Assembly (NCBI GenBank): GCA_029226975.1
Contig: JAQXZB010000037.1
Span: forward strand, 33,011 to 97,010
Length of the DNA stretch: 64,000 nucleotides
Reading direction: 5' to 3'
Origin: Clostridiales bacterium
GTDB lineage: Bacteria > Bacillota > Clostridia > UBA1381
Under the pieces are notes generated by a model, which saw only the letters and a list, made by a program, of their open reading frames with translations, was not told where the DNA came from and ran no database searches. A program made the translations under genes and the position numbers. Positions 592 through 41,800 of the stretch are shown piece by piece; the stretch's first letter is position 1, and every line of letters begins with the position of its first letter.

Positions 592-1599
592 ATGAATAAA
601 AAGCTTGGAAAGCAGACGGTTGCCTTTTCACAGCCGCCTGTTATTATAAATGCGGCTGCCGTCGGCGGGCAAAAGGAGGGCGAGGGACCTCTCGGTAAGG
701 ATTTTGACGTCATAGTTCCCGATGACAAGCTGGGTCAGCAGACCTGGGAAAAGGCGGAAAGCTCATTGCAGCGGCAGACGGCGGTGCTGGCAATGGAACG
801 CGCCGGTCTTACGCCTAATGACGTGGATTATATTTTTGCCGGGGATCTTTTAAATCAATGCGTCGGAGCAAGCTACGGATTAAGAGAACTGCAAATTCCC
901 TTTTTCGGGCTTTACGGCGCCTGCTCCACAATGACCGAGAGCATTTCCTTGGGAGCAATGCTCATAGCCGGGGATTATGCAAAAAATGTAATGTGTGTTA
1001 CGTCCAGTCATTTTTGCAGTGCGGAGAAGCAGTTTCGCTATCCTCTCGAATACGGCGGTCAGCGTGCGCCGTCGGCACAGTGGACGGTGACCGCCTCTGG
1101 CTGTGCGGTGCTGTCAAAAAGCGGGGAGGGACCGAGGATAACGCAGGTCACAACCGGTAAAATCGTGGACATGGGCATAACCGATATAAGCAATATGGGC
1201 GCGGCAATGGCACCGGCGGCAATTGATACGCTGTGTGCGCATTTTGAGGATACGGGCAGCTCGCCTGAGGATTATGACCTTATTCTTACCGGGGATTTGG
1301 GTGTTGTCGGCTCGGATATACTGATAAAGCTTATGCGGGAAAACGGATATGATTTGAGCAGTCGGCACAATGACTGCGGAAAAATGATATACGATATTGA
1401 AAAGCAGGACGTACACGCCGGCGGAAGCGGCTGCGGCTGCTGCGGAAGCGTACTGTGCGGGCATATATACAAGGAGCTTAAAAGCGGAAGAATAAATAAA
1501 ATGCTTGTTATGGCAACCGGGGCATTGATGAATCCGATGGTGGTTGAGCAGGGCGAGTCAATTCCGGGTATAGCACATGCAGTAGTAATAGAAAGTTAG
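592..1599 (+). CDS. spoVAD: Stage V sporulation protein AD
   Basis: Thiolase-like SpoVAD sequence (QPPVIINAAAVGGQKEGEGPLG, YGACSTMTESISLGAML, GGSGCGCCGSV); ggagg RBS. Confidence 0.95.
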   Translation: MNKKLGKQTVAFSQPPVIINAAAVGGQKEGEGPLGKDFDVIVPDDKLGQQTWEKAESSLQRQTAVLAMERAGLTPNDVDYIFAGDLLNQCVGASYGLRELQIPFFGLYGACSTMTESISLGAMLIAGDYAKNVMCVTSSHFCSAEKQFRYPLEYGGQRAPSAQWTVTASGCAVLSKSGEGPRITQVTTGKIVDMGITDISNMGAAMAPAAIDTLCAHFEDTGSSPEDYDLILTGDLGVVGSDILIKLMRENGYDLSSRHNDCGKMIYDIEKQDVHAGGSGCGCCGSVLCGHIYKELKSGRINKMLVMATGALMNPMVVEQGESIPGIAHAVVIES

Positions 1600-1602
1600 G
1601 AG

Positions 1603-1758
1603 ATAACGTGAAAAATAAGCTGCGCATCTCACCGCTTTTTGCTCGGGGCGGTATACTCATACAGCACCGCTCGCTGCAAAGCGGCAATCTGCATTCACCG
1701 CCAAGAAGGGCGGACGCACGTAGTGCGGCTTTTGCGAAGCAAAAGTGATGACAGGCTT
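1603..1758 (+). repeat. Copy A of a dispersed structured repeat, between spoVAD and spoVAE
   Basis: Terminal inverted repeat ATAACGTGAAAAATAAGC / GCTTCTTTTCCACGTTAT; internal hairpins CCGCC-AAGAAG-GGCGG, CGCAC-GTA-GTGCG, CTTTTGC-GAA-GCAAAAG; near-identical core at 32183-32360 and inverted at 41481-41790 and 59204-59376. Similarity to copy B continues to about 1790. Confidence 0.9.
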
Positions 1759-1797
1759 CTTTTCCACGTTATGATTTATGCCGCGAATGGCGGCGGA

Positions 1798-2166
1798 ATG
1801 GAGAGTATTATGGATTATGTAAAGGCTTTTGTTGTGGGCGGTCTGATATGTGTTGTGGGACAGATTTTAATAGATAAAACAAAGCTTACACCGGCAAGAA
1901 TTTTGGTTACGTTTGTGGTTTTGGGAGTGGCTTTGGAGCTTATCGGAGTTTACGGACGCTTGGTGGATTTTGCCGGAGCGGGCGCTACGGTTCCGCTTAC
2001 CGGCTTTGGTTATAATTTATGCAAGGGTGTAAGAGATGCGGTTGCCCAAAACGGGGCAATGGGGATTATGACCGGCGGACTTAAGGCGGCGGCGGGCGGC
2101 ATAAGCGCCGCACTGGTTTTCGGCTTCCTTGTGGCGGTTATATTTAAGTCAAAGGCGAAAAAGTAA
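1798..2166 (+). CDS. spoVAE: Stage V sporulation protein AE (SpoVAEb type); start at 1798 or 1810, not the ORF-track start at 1639, which lies in the repeat
   Basis: MDYVKAFVVGGLICVVGQILIDKTKLTPARILVTFVVLGVALELIGVY; small hydrophobic protein directly after spoVAD. Confidence 0.9.
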   Translation: MESIMDYVKAFVVGGLICVVGQILIDKTKLTPARILVTFVVLGVALELIGVYGRLVDFAGAGATVPLTGFGYNLCKGVRDAVAQNGAMGIMTGGLKAAAGGISAALVFGFLVAVIFKSKAKK

Positions 2167-2354
2167 AAAAACTTTTGATAAAGCTGCGCCTTTGGCGCAA
2201 GGTAAGTTTTTTTGCTAATAGGAAATTGAGAAATTTCCTCTTAGATAAAAAAGCTTTTGACAAAGCTTGCGGCTGCGGTTTTTGAATGGGAATTTAAAAA
2301 CCGCAGCAAAAAAATCTTGACTTAATACATAAAATATGGTATAATAGATGTAAT

Positions 2355-2428
2355 GCAGGTGTAGTTTAGCGGTAAAATACAAGCTTCCCAAGCTTGGGTT
2401 GTGGGTTCGACTCCCATCATCTGCTCCA
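2355..2428 (+). tRNA. tRNA-Gly (anticodon CCC), CCA encoded
   Basis: GCAGGTG acceptor pairs with CATCTGC; anticodon arm CAAGC-TTCCCAA-GCTTG; T arm with GGTTCGACTCC; 3' CCA. Confidence 0.92.
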
Positions 2429-2510
2429 CATCACAGCGAGCCTTTCGGTTCGCTGTTTTTTTGGGGTAAAAAAAGAGCGCGGCATAAGCGACTGCCGTAC
2501 TCTTAATGTG

Positions 2511-3179
2511 TTATTCTTCGATATTCTCCTCAATCGGAGCGGCTTCCTCCTCGGGAGCCTCCTCCTCGGTTACAAGCTCCATGCGGTTTATGGAAACCTC
2601 ATAGGCGGTTTTGGTTATGGTTTCATCCTCGGAAATCCGCTTTTGGTAATTTCTGGACTGTATGCGTCCCCATACCTTTACATTATCGCCCACGTTAAGG
2701 CTCTTTGCAAAGCGGGCGTTTCTGCCCCAGGCTATAATGGGGATATAGTCGGATTTGTTGTAGCTTCTGTTTACCGCAAGCAGAATATCCGTAATCTCCC
2801 TGCCGAACGGCGTGGTGCGGTATACCGGCGGCTTGCATATGTAGCCGTTTAAGTACAGAATATTCGGGTTTTTGCTCTCGTCCTCATCGTAATGCATAAT
2901 ATCCTTTGCGAATACGGTAAGAATAAGGCGATTGTCGCCGTTTTCATAGCTGTTGTAGGAACGGAACTGACCGGTTATTTCAACCTTGTCGCCGATATTG
3001 TAGGTGCCGTCCATGATAAGCCTTTCGGAAATCATTATGCGCACATTGTCATATGTGCCGCTCAGGCGCGGAATTTTCACCGTAAAGGTGTAGAACTTCT
3101 CCGCATAAATTTCGTGATTTAATTTGAATTCGTCCTCAATAGTGCCAATCACGGTGGCTTGGTTGTTGGTGTTATCCAT
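2511..3179 (-). CDS. Single-stranded DNA-binding-like protein with two OB-fold segments
   Basis: Two SSB-like segments (VIGTIEDEF...FYTFTVKIPR; LNGYICKPPVYRTTPFGREITDILLAVNR...DYIPIIAWGRNARFAKSLNVGDNVKVWGRIQSRNYQKR). Confidence 0.85.
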   Translation of the reverse strand: MDNTNNQATVIGTIEDEFKLNHEIYAEKFYTFTVKIPRLSGTYDNVRIMISERLIMDGTYNIGDKVEITGQFRSYNSYENGDNRLILTVFAKDIMHYDEDESKNPNILYLNGYICKPPVYRTTPFGREITDILLAVNRSYNKSDYIPIIAWGRNARFAKSLNVGDNVKVWGRIQSRNYQKRISEDETITKTAYEVSINRMELVTEEEAPEEEAAPIEENIEE

Positions 3180-3473
3180 AATTCGATCCTCCTTAGTTTT
3201 TGATCATCAGTTATACATATTCCGAAAAACGGTAAAATATTCCTCGTTTATAAAAATATCATATAAATATCTTTAACAGCATTATACTATTAAATTGTAA
3301 ACAAAATATAAACTTGGGGTTAATAATGTTTTAATTATTTTTGGGATTGGACAATTTGCCTTAAAAACAGTCTAAAAAGCCTAAAAATCGTATACAGACA
3401 ATAAATAATTACGGTTTTGGGGTTGACAAAGAGAGTAAAAAATGAGATAATTAAAAGATGAATATTGGTTTTG

Positions 3474-3686
3474 CGGCAGAAAGGGGCAGAATGTATGATT
3501 ATTAGGATAACAGCCGTCATTATCGGCCTGCTGGTGCTTTTAATGTCCTTTCGCAGTGAATGGATATTAAGAAATATCATAAAGATAGATGAGCCGTCCG
3601 ATAAGCAGATTCTTACGCTTAAGTCGGCCGCACTGGCAGCCGCCGTTATATTATTTATTGTTGTTACAGTTATATTAAAGATTTAA
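3474..3686 (+). CDS. Small two-TM hypothetical protein
   Basis: Short ORF with two hydrophobic segments between a promoter-like TTGACA/GATAAT and valS. Confidence 0.5.
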
Positions 3687-3703
3687 AACCGGAGGATATT
3701 ATA

Positions 3704-6361
3704 ATGGAAGACGCAAAAAACATAGCAAAAACCTACGACCCTGCCTCGTTTGAGGAAAAGTGGTACAACGAATGGGTTGAAAAGGGGTATTTCCACGCCG
3801 AGCCTAATCCCGACAAAAAGCCCTTTACCATCGTTATCCCACCCCCCAACGTAACAGGGCAGCTTCATATGGGACACGCTTTGGACGAAACCCTACAGGA
3901 CATTTTGATAAGATATAAAAGAATGCAGGGCTATGAGGCACTGTGGGTTCCCGGCACCGACCATGCCGGAATTGCAACTCAGATAAAGGTTGAGGAGGAT
4001 TTAAGAGTTAACGAGGGGCTTACACGCTACGACTTGGGCAGAGAAAAATTCCTCGAAAGAGTATGGGACTGGAAGAATAAGTTCGGAAGCCGGATTATAA
4101 ATCAGCTAAAGAAAATAGGCTCGTCCTGCGATTGGGACAGAGAACGCTTTACCATGGACGAGGGCTGTTCCGAGGCGGTTAAGGAGGTTTTTGTAAACCT
4201 CTATAACAAGGGACTTATCTACAAGGGCAACAGGATAATCAACTGGTGTCCCCACTGCTTGACGGCGCTTTCGGACGCAGAGGTTGAGCATGAGGAGCAG
4301 GCGGGACATTTCTGGCATATTAAATATCCCGTTAAGGACAGCGATGAATTTGTAATCATAGCCACCACAAGACCCGAAACCCTTTTCGGCGATACCGCCG
4401 TTGCGGTAAATCCCGAGGACGAAAGATATACGGCTCTGGTTGGCAAAACCCTTATACTGCCGCTTACCGGCAGGGAAATTCCGGTTATTGCGGACGAGTA
4501 TGTTGACAAGGAATTCGGAACGGGCTGCGTAAAGATTACCCCGGCTCACGACCCCAACGACTTTGAGGTTGGAAAAAGACATGACCTTGAGGTTATAAAG
4601 GTAATGAACGATGACGCCACAATGAATTCTTATGCCGGAAAATACGAGGGCATGGACAGATACGAATGCCGAAAAGCCATGGTTGAGGATTTAAAGGAAA
4701 TGGGGCTTTTGGTAAAAATCGAGGAGCACAGCCATAATGTAGGTACCTGCTACAGATGTAAAACCACCGTTGAGCCGGTAGCGTCAAAGCAGTGGTTCGT
4801 TAAGATGAAGCCGCTTGCAGAGCCGGCAATCGAGGCGGTAAGGTCGGGAAGCTCCAAATTTGGTCCCGAAAGATTTTCAAAGATATACATGAACTGGATG
4901 GAGAATGTTCAGGACTGGTGTATTTCAAGACAGCTTTGGTGGGGACACAGAATCCCGGCGTATTACTGCGAGAAATGCGGTACTCATGAGGAACCGAAGA
5001 TTTTCGTTTCAAAGGAGGAAATGACCGTCTGCCCGGACTGCGGAGCACCCTTAAAGCGCGATGAGGACGTGCTTGACACATGGTTCTCCTCGGCACTGTG
5101 GCCGTTCTCGACCTTGGGCTGGCCCGAAAATACAAAGGAACTGGAGTATTTTTACCCCACAAGCGTACTTGTTACGGGCTATGACATAATATTCTTCTGG
5201 GTTGCGAGAATGATTTTCTCGGCAATGGAGCATACCGGCAAGGCACCCTTTGAGCATATCTTTATTCACGGTCTTGTAAGGGACAGCCAAGGAAGAAAAA
5301 TGAGCAAATCCCTCGGCAACGGCATAGACCCCTTGGAGATAATAGACCAATACGGTGCGGACGCGCTGAGATTTACCCTCGCAACGGGAAATGCGCCCGG
5401 AAACGATATGCGTTTCTATACCGAAAGAGTTGAGGCAAGCCGAAACTTTGCAAACAAGATATGGAACGCGTCCAGATTTACGCTGATGAATTTGGATATA
5501 ACCGAAAACAAGCTTCCCGATAAGGACAAGCTTCAGACCGAGGACAAGTGGATACTTTCCAAATACAACAGGGTTGTAAAAGAGGTTATAGATAATCTTG
5601 ACAAGTTTGAGCTGGGCGTTGCTCTTTCAAAGCTATATGACTTTATATGGGACAGCTTCTGCGACTGGTATATCGAGCTTGTAAAGCCGAGATTGTTTGA
5701 CAAGGAAAACAAAACCGCCGAAACGGCGCAGTATGTGCTTACTTATGTTCTGTCCAACACAATGAAGCTTCTGCACCCATTTATGCCCTTTATTACCGAG
5801 GAAATATGGCAGCATCTTCCCCACGAGGGCGAGAGCATCGTAATAAGCTCTTATCCCGAATTTGACGAGGGACTTGTGTTTGAGGACGAGGAAAAGGACA
5901 TGGAAATGATTATGGAGGCGATTTCTGCCGTAAGAAACAGAAGAGCGGAAATGAATGTACCGCCTTCAAGGAAAGCGCAGCTTATAATCGTTACGGACAA
6001 AACAGATACCTTTATGAGGGGCGCAATGTTCTTTGAAAGACTCGCTTCGGCAAGCGGCGTGACCGTAAAAACCGACAAGTCGGGCATAAGCGACAATGCG
6101 GTAAATATCGTTGTGGGCGGAGCGGAGATATTCCTGCCCCTTGAGGAGCTTGTTGACCGGGATAAGGAGCTTGAACGCTTAAAGGGCGAGAAAAAGAAGC
6201 TTGAGGGCGAAATAAAGCGCGTTGAGGGCAAGCTTTCAAACAAGGGCTTTGTTGAAAAGGCTCCCGAAAAGGTTGTAGCCGAGGAACGTGAAAAGGGAGA
6301 AAAGTACAAAGCAATGCTCGACAAGGTTATAGAGAGCATAAACGCAATGGAAAATATGTAA
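3704..6361 (+). CDS. valS: Valyl-tRNA synthetase
   Basis: [33 protein letters not shown] motifs; C-terminal coiled coil. Confidence 0.98.
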
Positions 6362-33083: not shown

Positions 33084-33572
33084 ATGGCAATCATAAACAC
33101 CATTAAAGGCTTTTTCGGTTACGGAGAGGACGATTTCGAGGACTACGACGAGGAGTATGAGGAGTACGAGGAGGAGGAAGAAGCTCCCAAAAGAAGCTTC
33201 TTTAAGGAACGCCAAAGCGCAAAGGAAGAGGAGGATACTCCCAAAAGAAGCTCCAAGGTGGTTCCCATCACCTCGCGAAACGAGCGCGCAAACGTGCAGA
33301 TAATCACGCCGACGGTTTTCGATGATACCAGAAAGGCTGCGGAAATTATAATGAACCGCCGCGTGCTTATATTAAACGTAACAAAAATGCGCGACACCGA
33401 CGAGGCAATGCGCGTTGTGGATTTCATATCCGGTACGGTTTACGGGCTTCGGGGAAATATCCGCAAGGTGCATGACGGAATATTTGTTGCCGCACCCAGC
33501 AACATCGATATTTCCGGCGACAGCATAAAGGACCATACATACAATAATTTTAACCTGCGACATGACGGCTGA
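33084..33572 (+). CDS. sepF: Cell division protein SepF
   Basis: Acidic linker then ANVQIITPTVFDDTRKAAEIIMNRRVLILNVTKMRDTDEAMRVVDFISGTVYGL. Confidence 0.95.
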   Translation: MAIINTIKGFFGYGEDDFEDYDEEYEEYEEEEEAPKRSFFKERQSAKEEEDTPKRSSKVVPITSRNERANVQIITPTVFDDTRKAAEIIMNRRVLILNVTKMRDTDEAMRVVDFISGTVYGLRGNIRKVHDGIFVAAPSNIDISGDSIKDHTYNNFNLRHDG

Positions 33573-35857: not shown

Positions 35858-35892
35858 GGGACTGTCATAAAGAGGCAGTCTCTTTTTTTTGT
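35858..35892 (+). terminator. Terminator after ilvE
   Basis: GACTG...CAGTC stem then T8. Confidence 0.6.
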
Positions 35893-35971
35893 ATATTTGT
35901 AATTTACTCTTGTTAAATTCCGACACTTGTGTTATAATATAATTACAATAAAACCGAAAAGAGGGATGTAT

Positions 35972-36448
35972 ATGGCACCGGATACGATTGTTTTTGAACA
36001 GGAAGGGCTTGATCGGGCGATTGCGGCAGGATTTGTGAGCATCGGTCTTTGCGATAACACTTTTGTGCTGCCACCCAAAACGGGGATTACATATATGGCA
36101 ATAGGCAGCGTTTCTGTAAGTATTCCTCTTACAAGGGCGCAGTGCGCCGGTATACATTTTAACGGCTTTGAGCCGAAATTTGCTCCGGACATTGCATATG
36201 TGCCGCGGTATACGCCGTCGGCGTGTGTTCCCACCTCCGGCAGCGGTTCATGGGGTTCTTTCGGGAGCTATGCGTCCTCTTACGGGTCATTTTTCCATAT
36301 GTATGAGTACGAGTATGAATATGGTTCATTTAACCGCGGGTCATTCGGTTTCGGCTCTTTTGGCTACGGCTCGTTTTCGGGGTCATTCGGCTCATACAAC
36401 CATATTATAAACCCATTTGTAAAAGGCTACGGTATAAATCTGATATGA
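35972..36448 (+). CDS. Hypothetical protein: N-terminal domain plus Gly-Ser-aromatic repeat tail
   Basis: gaaaagaggg RBS and MAPDTIVFEQEGLDRAIAAGF; tail GSGSWGSFGSYASSYGSFFHMYEYEYEYGSFNRGSFGFGSFGYGSFSGSFGSY; ATGA overlap with next CDS. Confidence 0.8.
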   Translation: MAPDTIVFEQEGLDRAIAAGFVSIGLCDNTFVLPPKTGITYMAIGSVSVSIPLTRAQCAGIHFNGFEPKFAPDIAYVPRYTPSACVPTSGSGSWGSFGSYASSYGSFFHMYEYEYEYGSFNRGSFGFGSFGYGSFSGSFGSYNHIINPFVKGYGINLI

Positions 36449-37287
36449 ACGCTTTGCATATAAACTGGTCAAAGCCCTTCACGCTTCGCCATAAGGCGTT
36501 TTTCGTGGAGGATTTTGAGCTTTTGACTACAATTTTATCAGCCCTTAAATGGCGCGAGAAAAACGGAAGCATAAAGCTGTGCGCGGACAAAACCGCCTTG
36601 CTGTTCTACGAAGCGGCGGGGCTTTTGCCCATATGGGACGGCGGTTATGAGGAGCTTGTTGTGGACGAGGACATAGACCCAATAATGTTTTGGGCGGCGG
36701 GCAAGCTTTTTGCCCTGCGTTTACAGAATGCGCCGGTGGCGGTCATGGACACTGATTTCATTGTCTGGGAAAGTATTCTCTTTGACAGACTTCCCGAATG
36801 CAGCGTTATTCATTTTGAGGAGCTTTATCCCGATGTATATCCGGGTAAAGAGTATTTTAAGCTGCGGCCGGGCTTTGATTTGGACGGGCTTGACTGGAGC
36901 GTTCCCGCCTGCAACACCGCTTTTACGGTGTTTAAGGACGAGGGACTTTTAAAATACTACACCGAAACAGCGATAGATTTTATGAAGCACAGCCCTGCTT
37001 TGGACGATACGTTAAAATACATGGTCTTTGCCGAGCAACGGCTGCTTTCCATGTGCGCGAAAAAAAGGGGTGCGCACATACTTGCCTTTTCCGGGCTTGA
37101 CCGGCTGTTCTCGGACGGAAGCGGCTGTTTTACCCACACCTGGGGCATGAAGCAGCAGATGCGCGACAATGACGCGCTTCGCTATGATTTTTGTATGCGC
37201 TGCATAGGGCGCATAAAGAGGGAATATCCCTCAGTTTACGATATTATTCGAAATATAAGTATTTTTGACAAATATAAGGAGAAATAA
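36445..37287 (+). CDS. Glycosyltransferase-like protein (DUF6734-like), DXD-type motif
   Basis: APVAVMDTDFIVWESI resembles a GT-A donor-binding DXD motif; translationally coupled to the repeat protein. Confidence 0.65.
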   Translation: MNALHINWSKPFTLRHKAFFVEDFELLTTILSALKWREKNGSIKLCADKTALLFYEAAGLLPIWDGGYEELVVDEDIDPIMFWAAGKLFALRLQNAPVAVMDTDFIVWESILFDRLPECSVIHFEELYPDVYPGKEYFKLRPGFDLDGLDWSVPACNTAFTVFKDEGLLKYYTETAIDFMKHSPALDDTLKYMVFAEQRLLSMCAKKRGAHILAFSGLDRLFSDGSGCFTHTWGMKQQMRDNDALRYDFCMRCIGRIKREYPSVYDIIRNISIFDKYKEK

Positions 37288-37288
37288 C

Positions 37289-38308
37289 ATGATAGTTGGC
37301 TTAAAACACGCAATACTGCATATTTTAGACGCAAATTCGGGCGTTACGGTGTTTTCCGATGATGAGCTTGATCTCTCGGACGCCATGGTTGATTCGTTTA
37401 TCACAAAGCATATAGATAAAGTTTGCGCCGATTCGGGAGCGCGCAGAGGTGAGTTTAACGAAAGCAGCGGATTTTTATACCATGTAAAGGAGTATATCGC
37501 TTCCCCGGAGGAGGAGAGAGATTTGCACAGTCTTTCCATGTTCATTGCCGAACGCCTTTATGAGGGAATTTCCCATGCGGAGAACACCGAATCCTGCGAT
37601 GTTTTAATCTGCGACTGCAATATAAACGAACGTCCCGCAATAGCTGTCCTAAAGTTCGACAACAAGGTGGGCTACACTCACCGGGTCTTAAAGGAGGACG
37701 GCGAGGTCAGGAACGAGATTATAAACCACTATGCGATTTTGCCCTCAGCCTCAACGGCGGTAAGGGAATACGCATTTATCGACCAAACGGATTTAACAAT
37801 CAGATTTAAGGGACAAAAGCGCAGCATTGACGGCGAAAAGGTTGATTTAATGGCGGATTTGCTCTTAGAATGCAGCTTTGACATTTCCTCAAGGGAGTCA
37901 ATAAACGCGGTAAACCGCATTGCAAAAAAGGTTACGGAGGTAAACGAGGGCGACTCCATCGACACCTCGGCAAGAATGAAGCGTTATGTGGTGGAGAGCG
38001 TGGAGAAAGAGGATTTGAAGTTTGTGGAGCCGCAAAAGATTGCCGACACTGTTTTTGAGGGCAGACCGGTAATGAAAGCGGAGTTTCTCGAGGAGGTAAG
38101 AAAGGCGCAGGTGCCGGAAAAGGTTGAGGTTACGGGCTATGTGACAAAGAAAATGTCCTCGAATATCAAGCTTTCCACAGATATAGGTGTGGATTTATCC
38201 TTCCCCGCCGAATATTACAGCAACAGCGATTACATAGAGATTATAAACAACGATGACGGTACAATTTCCATTAAAATAAACAATATCGGCGAGCTTAAGA
38301 ACAAATAG
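37289..38308 (+). CDS. Nucleoid-associated protein, NdpA/YejK family
   Basis: MIVGLKHAILHILDANSG...DVLICDCNINERPAIAVLKFDNKVGYTH. Confidence 0.85.
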   Translation: MIVGLKHAILHILDANSGVTVFSDDELDLSDAMVDSFITKHIDKVCADSGARRGEFNESSGFLYHVKEYIASPEEERDLHSLSMFIAERLYEGISHAENTESCDVLICDCNINERPAIAVLKFDNKVGYTHRVLKEDGEVRNEIINHYAILPSASTAVREYAFIDQTDLTIRFKGQKRSIDGEKVDLMADLLLECSFDISSRESINAVNRIAKKVTEVNEGDSIDTSARMKRYVVESVEKEDLKFVEPQKIADTVFEGRPVMKAEFLEEVRKAQVPEKVEVTGYVTKKMSSNIKLSTDIGVDLSFPAEYYSNSDYIEIINNDDGTISIKINNIGELKNK

Positions 38309-41480: not shown

Positions 41481-41651
41481 GTTTGGGAAAAGAGAAGCTT
41501 GTCATCACTTTTGCTCCGCAAAAGCCGCACTCCGTGCGTCCGCCCTTCTTGGCGGTGAGTGCAGATTGCTGTTATGAGGAGTGCAGTCGTACTTTGTGTA
41601 CTTCAAGCTCCGAATGACGGTAAGATGCGCCGCTTATCTTTTTCCAAACTT
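41481..41651 (-). repeat. Copy C1 of the dispersed structured repeat (full length)
   Basis: Terminal inverted repeat gtttgggaaaagagaagc ... gcttatctttttccaaac; reverse complement carries the same three hairpins as copies A and B. Confidence 0.9.
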
Positions 41652-41678
41652 ATAGTCCGAAATTCTTTCACCAATGCC

Positions 41679-41790
41679 GTTTGGGAAAAGAGAAGCAAGC
41701 AGATTGCTGTTATGAGGAGCGCAGTCGTACTTTGTGTACTTCAAGCTCCGAATGACGGTAAGATGCGCCGCTTATCTTTTTCCAAACTTA
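41679..41790 (-). repeat. Copy C2 of the repeat, internally deleted
   Basis: Same ends as C1 but the ~60 bp triple-hairpin block is missing (agaagcaagcagattgctg). Confidence 0.9.
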
Positions 41791-41800
41791 TTCTCCCTTG

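Follow-up and report, generated by a model that had tools for sequence, protein, structure and literature searches.

The stretch of DNA examined here, referred to as the window, is 64,000 nucleotides long and contains two overlapping genes that look like an undescribed dedicated protein-modification pair of many gut Clostridia, made up of a DUF6734 enzyme and a single tagged partner. Our main reading, to which we assign a probability of roughly 60%, is that the two genes form a dedicated cytoplasmic glycosylation pair, in which a C-terminal tag on the partner would dock the enzyme and hydroxyls of the tail or tag would accept the sugar. An earlier note on this DNA had suggested a dedicated substrate and modifier pair, and that suggestion is well supported by one-to-one co-occurrence in several families, including genomes in which the two genes are unlinked.

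Organization of the locus

The partner gene begins with an ATG at 35972 and ends with a TGA at 36446-36448, and the enzyme gene (36445-37287) begins with an ATG at 36445, giving the ATGA overlap of stop and start that the earlier note had described. The same note had reported a 158-aa partner lacking a signal peptide, and both the reading frame and the lack of any hydrophobic segment bear this out. Based on a consensus scan, partner and enzyme genes appear to be one transcription unit with its own sigmaA-type promoter. Directly after the enzyme gene, at 37289, lies a gene of the Pfam NA37 family (37-kD nucleoid-associated protein). The features of the locus are as follows.

35858..35889, + strand: intrinsic-terminator-like stem and T run, which would close the upstream ilvE-like transcript (consensus scan only)
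35910..35938, + strand: sigmaA-type promoter TTGTTA-17-TATAAT with TG 5' of the -10 and the start codon 33 nt on (scan; recurs in homologous loci)
35972..36448, + strand: gene for the partner, the proposed substrate, 158 aa (open reading frame; homologues)
35972..36181, + strand: ordered N-terminal domain, residues 1-70, IVFxQxELDxA..LCDNxFxLP..YxAIG (AlphaFold2 pLDDT mostly about 90)
36236..36397, + strand: disordered Gly-Ser-aromatic tail, residues 89-142 (pLDDT < 50; codon diversity; Ser conservation)
36302..36322, + strand: YEYEYEY block (recurs in many relatives, including the short partners of genus g15)
36425..36445, + strand: C-terminal tag GYGINLI, the invariant element of partners (GYG-x-x-L-[IV] in 63/63 linked partners; genome scans)
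36445..37287, + strand: DUF6734 GT-A-fold glycosyltransferase-like gene, 280 aa (Pfam PF20508, AlphaFold2, Foldseek)
36748..36756, + strand: DTD motif, residues 102-104, invariant (alignment of 79 sequences)
37135..37152, + strand: HxWGxK motif, H231-T-W-G-M-K236, invariant (alignment of 79 sequences)

Elsewhere in the window, two intergenic direct repeats of 98 nt that are 97% identical occupy 41561-41658 and 41699-41796, and the open reading frame that runs through them (41561-41796 region) is probably not a gene. Upstream, close to division genes, the open reading frame at 33084-33572 was judged by eye to be SepF-like; its long linker is acidic and YE-rich. A phage or plasmid origin of the pair was set aside, with no match to it in phages, plasmids or viral contigs, as was a defence-system reading, with no PADLOC match.

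The enzyme is predicted to adopt a GT-A fold

DUF6734 (PF20508) is listed in Pfam as a family of unknown function, and no described partner for it was found in the literature searched; nor was any mention of DUF6734 or the tag sequences found in that literature, which lay mostly outside subscription journals. It is the sole Pfam match of the window enzyme, narrowly above the cut-off (27.6 bits against 27), and the sole family matched consistently among relatives, with 79/79 aligned relatives matching at E <= 0.1 and a best E of 2.3e-19. The GT8 profile gave no match at E <= 0.1 to the window enzyme or the 79 aligned relatives, and no PDB chain was matched by the enzyme sequence.

The earlier description of this gene as GT-A-like agrees with its AlphaFold2 model (pLDDT 95.5), which Foldseek aligned at a probability of 1.00 to GT-A enzymes including YeGT, the UGGT catalytic domain, glycogenin, xylosyltransferase and Skp1 galactosyltransferase. 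Human and rabbit glycogenin were among its best structural neighbours, and viral glycosyltransferases were matched in a second Foldseek library. TM-scores to the GT-A enzymes were modest at 0.3-0.5, indicating a distant common fold and not close kinship; these scores and the lack of a PDB sequence match weigh against a glycosylation pair. Judged by the model, a GT-A glycosyltransferase fold for the DUF6734 protein is supported. Residues invariant in the alignment include D48, D102-T-D104, N157, E197-Q-R199 and H231-T-W-G-x-K236. DxD and the His of an HxxG-like motif form the metal and nucleotide site of GT8 enzymes, and by analogy we infer that DTD and HxWGxK may do so in the DUF6734 enzyme. 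From fold and motifs together, DUF6734 would be a metal-dependent GT-A glycosyltransferase that uses a nucleotide sugar.

A C-terminal tag co-occurs with the enzyme

The most conserved part of the window partner is its C-terminal KGYGINLI, a defining feature of the partner on which the earlier note was silent. Across Clostridia the partner C-terminus is the seven-residue GYG[LIVM][ENHD]L[IV]-stop, in most cases preceded by a Ser-rich tail. In a survey of 80 public DUF6734 loci, 62 upstream open reading frames end in GYG-[LIVM]-[ENHD]-L-[IV]-stop; these were selected by pattern, within 150 bases of the enzyme gene, and therefore the genome counts are the independent tests. G-Y-G and L are invariant in all 63 linked partners (the 62 and that of the window), and no hydroxyl residue other than the Tyr of GYG is common to every partner. 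Covariation of the variable position of the tag with enzyme residues was rejected, as it gave lineage signal only.

Scanning genomes with a DNA pattern for the tag and stop codon, we found the tag gene normally once per genome in the window's family. The tag was present in 39 of 43 enzyme-positive genomes, or 41 of 43 with two GTN-codon variants, and in 1 of 27 enzyme-negative genomes (39/4 versus 1/26, Fisher p = 6e-14); a control with the reversed pattern gave scattered matches only. In a second family, of the Butyricicoccus/Agathobaculum type, the tag was found in 51 of 87 genomes and is almost always single-copy; the enzyme adjoins the tag gene in 30/30 loci fetched. Exactly one tag gene was found in each of 12 named genomes tested. 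A class-wide sample of 342 genomes contained 15 with the enzyme, and those inspected from outside the family have an adjoining tag open reading frame.

Genetic linkage, which the earlier note had offered as a check, stood only in part: among the 41 genomes of the window's family with both tag and enzyme, the genes are linked in 25 and on different contigs in 16 (one of which, G067, is possibly an assembly break), yet they still co-occur. The tag is unchanged where the genes sit on different contigs, which excludes a purely cis-acting role; the tag acts in trans. This bears directly on the reading of the upstream open reading frame as a leader or arrest peptide acting in cis to regulate how the enzyme gene is translated. 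Such a peptide would suit a frame with a conserved C-terminus that lies directly 5' of the enzyme gene and can be as short as 23 codons, but long N-terminal domains would be pointless in it, and we rejected this highly improbable reading because the tag is conserved on separate contigs in the 16 family genomes.

In the unlinked lineages, the tag gene lies directly 5' of a U32-peptidase-like gene, and the enzyme gene lies beside an ftsW/rodA-like gene or beside an mltG-like gene and a methyltransferase gene (names by eye). These neighbours, and the fact that partners all have nothing but the tag in common, favour a view in which the enzyme would modify some other acceptor, for example an envelope polymer, with the tag protein as activator, scaffold or regulatory subunit. 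We consider this unlikely, given that the Ser-rich disordered tail is maintained by selection and would be needless for pure docking. In genus g15 (loci L177, L179, L176, L178 and L180), the tag gene is seen by eye directly before the U32-peptidase-like gene, and in three of the five loci it is downstream of a hydF-like GTPase gene, also named by eye.

Returning to the glycosylation pair, conservation and co-occurrence of the tag are consistent with an enzyme that would recognise its single partner via C-terminal GYG[LI]xL[IV]. A broader version, tentative and at somewhat less than even odds, is that the tag is portable, such that any protein ending in GYG[LI]xL[IV], from a 23-aa peptide to unrelated folds, would be glycosylated by DUF6734 in an undescribed one-enzyme, one-substrate intracellular system.

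The N-terminal domain and its variation among lineages

Homologues of the window partner occur in 35 of the 70 genomes of its family. The N-terminal domain had been put at about 90 aa; an ordered domain is indeed present in the AlphaFold2 model, which shortens it to about 70 aa. It has no Pfam or NCBIfam match and its fold has no meaningful structural match in the PDB; a beta-helix-like reading was dropped, as there was nothing for it beyond weak matches. It is related (hhalign 96.6%, E 6.7e-10) to a domain carried by the large proteins of locus L207 in genome G070, which are encoded beside an AAA ATPase, and the first half of these proteins resembles the N-terminal domain of the partner in genome G602 (BLASTP 2e-7). 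As both are related to parts of the same G070 proteins, at least two partner N-terminal domains appear to have arisen from a single larger Clostridial module. At L207 itself (1111-4015), the N-terminal two-domain module is identical in two adjacent large proteins encoded beside the AAA ATPase gene, and its two halves are related to the N-terminal domains of different tag-bearing partners.

Partner N-terminal domains are non-homologous between lineages: the window's family has the type IVFxQxELD, Butyricicoccus and Agathobaculum have YREIDGVVFDLDSYARHC, and family f159 has MKLLLMFFDERCYTYLL together with a tail of GSGSGS alone. Tails likewise vary by lineage, from GSY/TSY to pure GSGS, and partner types group by clade in the enzyme tree (f159 lies outside the tree). 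In four Cellulosilyticum genomes the partner is a 23-aa peptide only, for example MAFSSEVKEVPTSNVGGYGLELI, preceded by a strong ribosome-binding site and ending in GGYGLELI with almost no Ser tail; no second tag gene was found in the three scanned Cellulosilyticum genomes with this peptide. The genus g15 partner, of about 57 aa, retains YEYEYEYEF and the tag. Retention of the tag by these short partners indicates that it is the essential part, with the tail next in conservation, and in the proposed pair the N-terminal part would be lineage-specific cargo. Alternating Tyr-Glu blocks (YEYEYEY, HEHEYEY) recur widely among partners, some of them very short (L135, L143, L090 and window 36302-36322).

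A conserved Ser-rich tail and the candidate acceptors

Residues 87-158 of the partner are almost entirely disordered in the AlphaFold2 model. The Gly-Ser-aromatic tail reported earlier was confirmed and contains ten GS[FYW] units with varied codons, the YEYEYEY stretch being its only, and weak, tandem repeat at the DNA level. The pattern is therefore maintained at the protein level and does not reflect recent duplication. Partner tails are 27.6% Ser, with Tyr, Phe, Ser or Gly as the usual next residue and all six Ser codons in use. Between close pairs, 96.5% of the Ser positions in the tail are identical, versus 86.8% for other tail residues (Fisher p = 3e-4, with pairs not fully independent), and 29% of the identical Ser differ in codon. 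These sequence patterns make tail Ser a plausible sugar acceptor. However, the Cellulosilyticum peptides are poor in Ser, so tail Ser cannot be the acceptor everywhere, which weighs against it as a universal one. We propose that sugar would be transferred to hydroxyls of the flexible stretch that immediately precedes the tag, or of the tag itself, the acceptor in most lineages being the Ser of GS/TS repeats and possibly the tag Tyr.

Should the Tyr of GYG be the true acceptor, the enzyme would resemble glycogenin, and the glycosylated C-terminus may prime a longer glucan or another polysaccharide. This Tyr is the sole hydroxyl residue in every partner, including the 23-aa peptides, human and rabbit glycogenin rank among the best structural neighbours of the enzyme, and glycogen synthase (GlgA) is encoded in 64 of the 70 family genomes. 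However, GlgA is found with or without the pair, many unrelated GT-A enzymes are also structural neighbours, and such a role offers no account of why the Ser tails are long and conserved, making this variant an improbable one.

Expression, localization and significance

The pattern TTGN3-N17-TATAAT lies upstream of 29 of 60 homologous loci compared to a mean of 0.2 in shuffles, a recurrence pointing to expression in growing cells and one that would argue against a sporulation-specific role for the pair. By a hydropathy scan, the window partner and enzyme both lack signal peptides and transmembrane segments; its threshold was exceeded by 1 of 58 partners and by 0 enzymes. SpoIVA was found in 67 of 70 and 14 of 15 genomes, nearly universally with or without the pair, and as the same is true of GlgA, neither marker discriminates pair-positive from pair-negative genomes.

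The earlier note had named a spore-surface protein as one example, and a pair like BclA3/SgtA of Clostridioides difficile, in which the mother cell makes and glycosylates a self-assembling spore appendage protein, would fit the presence of SpoIVA in nearly all hosts tested, the lack of a signal peptide and the side-by-side arrangement of the known genes (PMC7157674). Against this, sigmaA-type promoters recur upstream, SpoIVA is equally present in pair-less genomes, collagen-like repeats are lacking and some partners are peptides of 23 aa; the suggestion is thus not supported, and we rate it as quite unlikely. A further suggestion of the note, a RiPP-like precursor, is weak, inspection of flanking reading frames having revealed no protease or transporter/export genes conserved beside the pair. 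The likeliest use of the product of the glycosylation pair would be as a cytoplasmic or self-assembling glycoprotein of growing cells.

A short C-terminal tag that guides a dedicated bacterial glycosyltransferase onto unrelated proteins would, if real, provide the first function for DUF6734. It would also mean that gut Clostridia as common as Butyricicoccus, Agathobaculum and Cellulosilyticum have a protein modification that had gone unsuspected, and it could become a tool for site-directed protein glycosylation. At 23 aa, the Cellulosilyticum peptide is short enough that a synthetic copy of it and a single purified enzyme would suffice for a test of the hypothesis.

Comparison with known systems

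The proposed pair is like the GT8 protein glycogenin in its GT-A fold, its DxD and His-containing motifs and its protein acceptor. Unlike glycogenin, which modifies itself, enzyme and partner are encoded by separate genes. In glycocins, the precursor has a leader peptide and a disulfide-bonded core and is served by a peptidase-transporter; no such feature is conserved at the pair. As here, their short precursor is encoded beside a glycosyltransferase (PMC12457901).

Serine-rich repeat adhesins with GtfA/GtfB undergo dedicated intracellular O-glycosylation of Ser-rich repeats (PMC5578698, PMC6291802), as we propose for the partner. Those adhesins are exported via accessory Sec, whereas the partner lacks a signal peptide and ends in GYGxxLI. 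Among adhesin features, neither a hydrophobic N-terminal segment nor an LPXTG anchor was found in the partner, its C-terminus being GYGxxL[IV]. Serine-rich repeat adhesins are also much larger than the partner and wall-anchored, and GtfA/B have a GT-B fold.

BclA3/SgtA is likened to the pair by its description; collagen-like repeats and the spore exosporium belong to that system. BclA-type collagen-like Gly-X-Y repeats were not found in the partner tails, which are GS/TS/SS-aromatic or GSGS, and BclA3 is not known to carry a C-terminal GYGxxLI tag. SgtA adds beta-O-GlcNAc to Thr in the BclA3 repeats of Clostridioides difficile, and, as proposed here, a cytoplasmic glycosyltransferase is encoded beside its own repeat-bearing protein substrate (PMC7157674).
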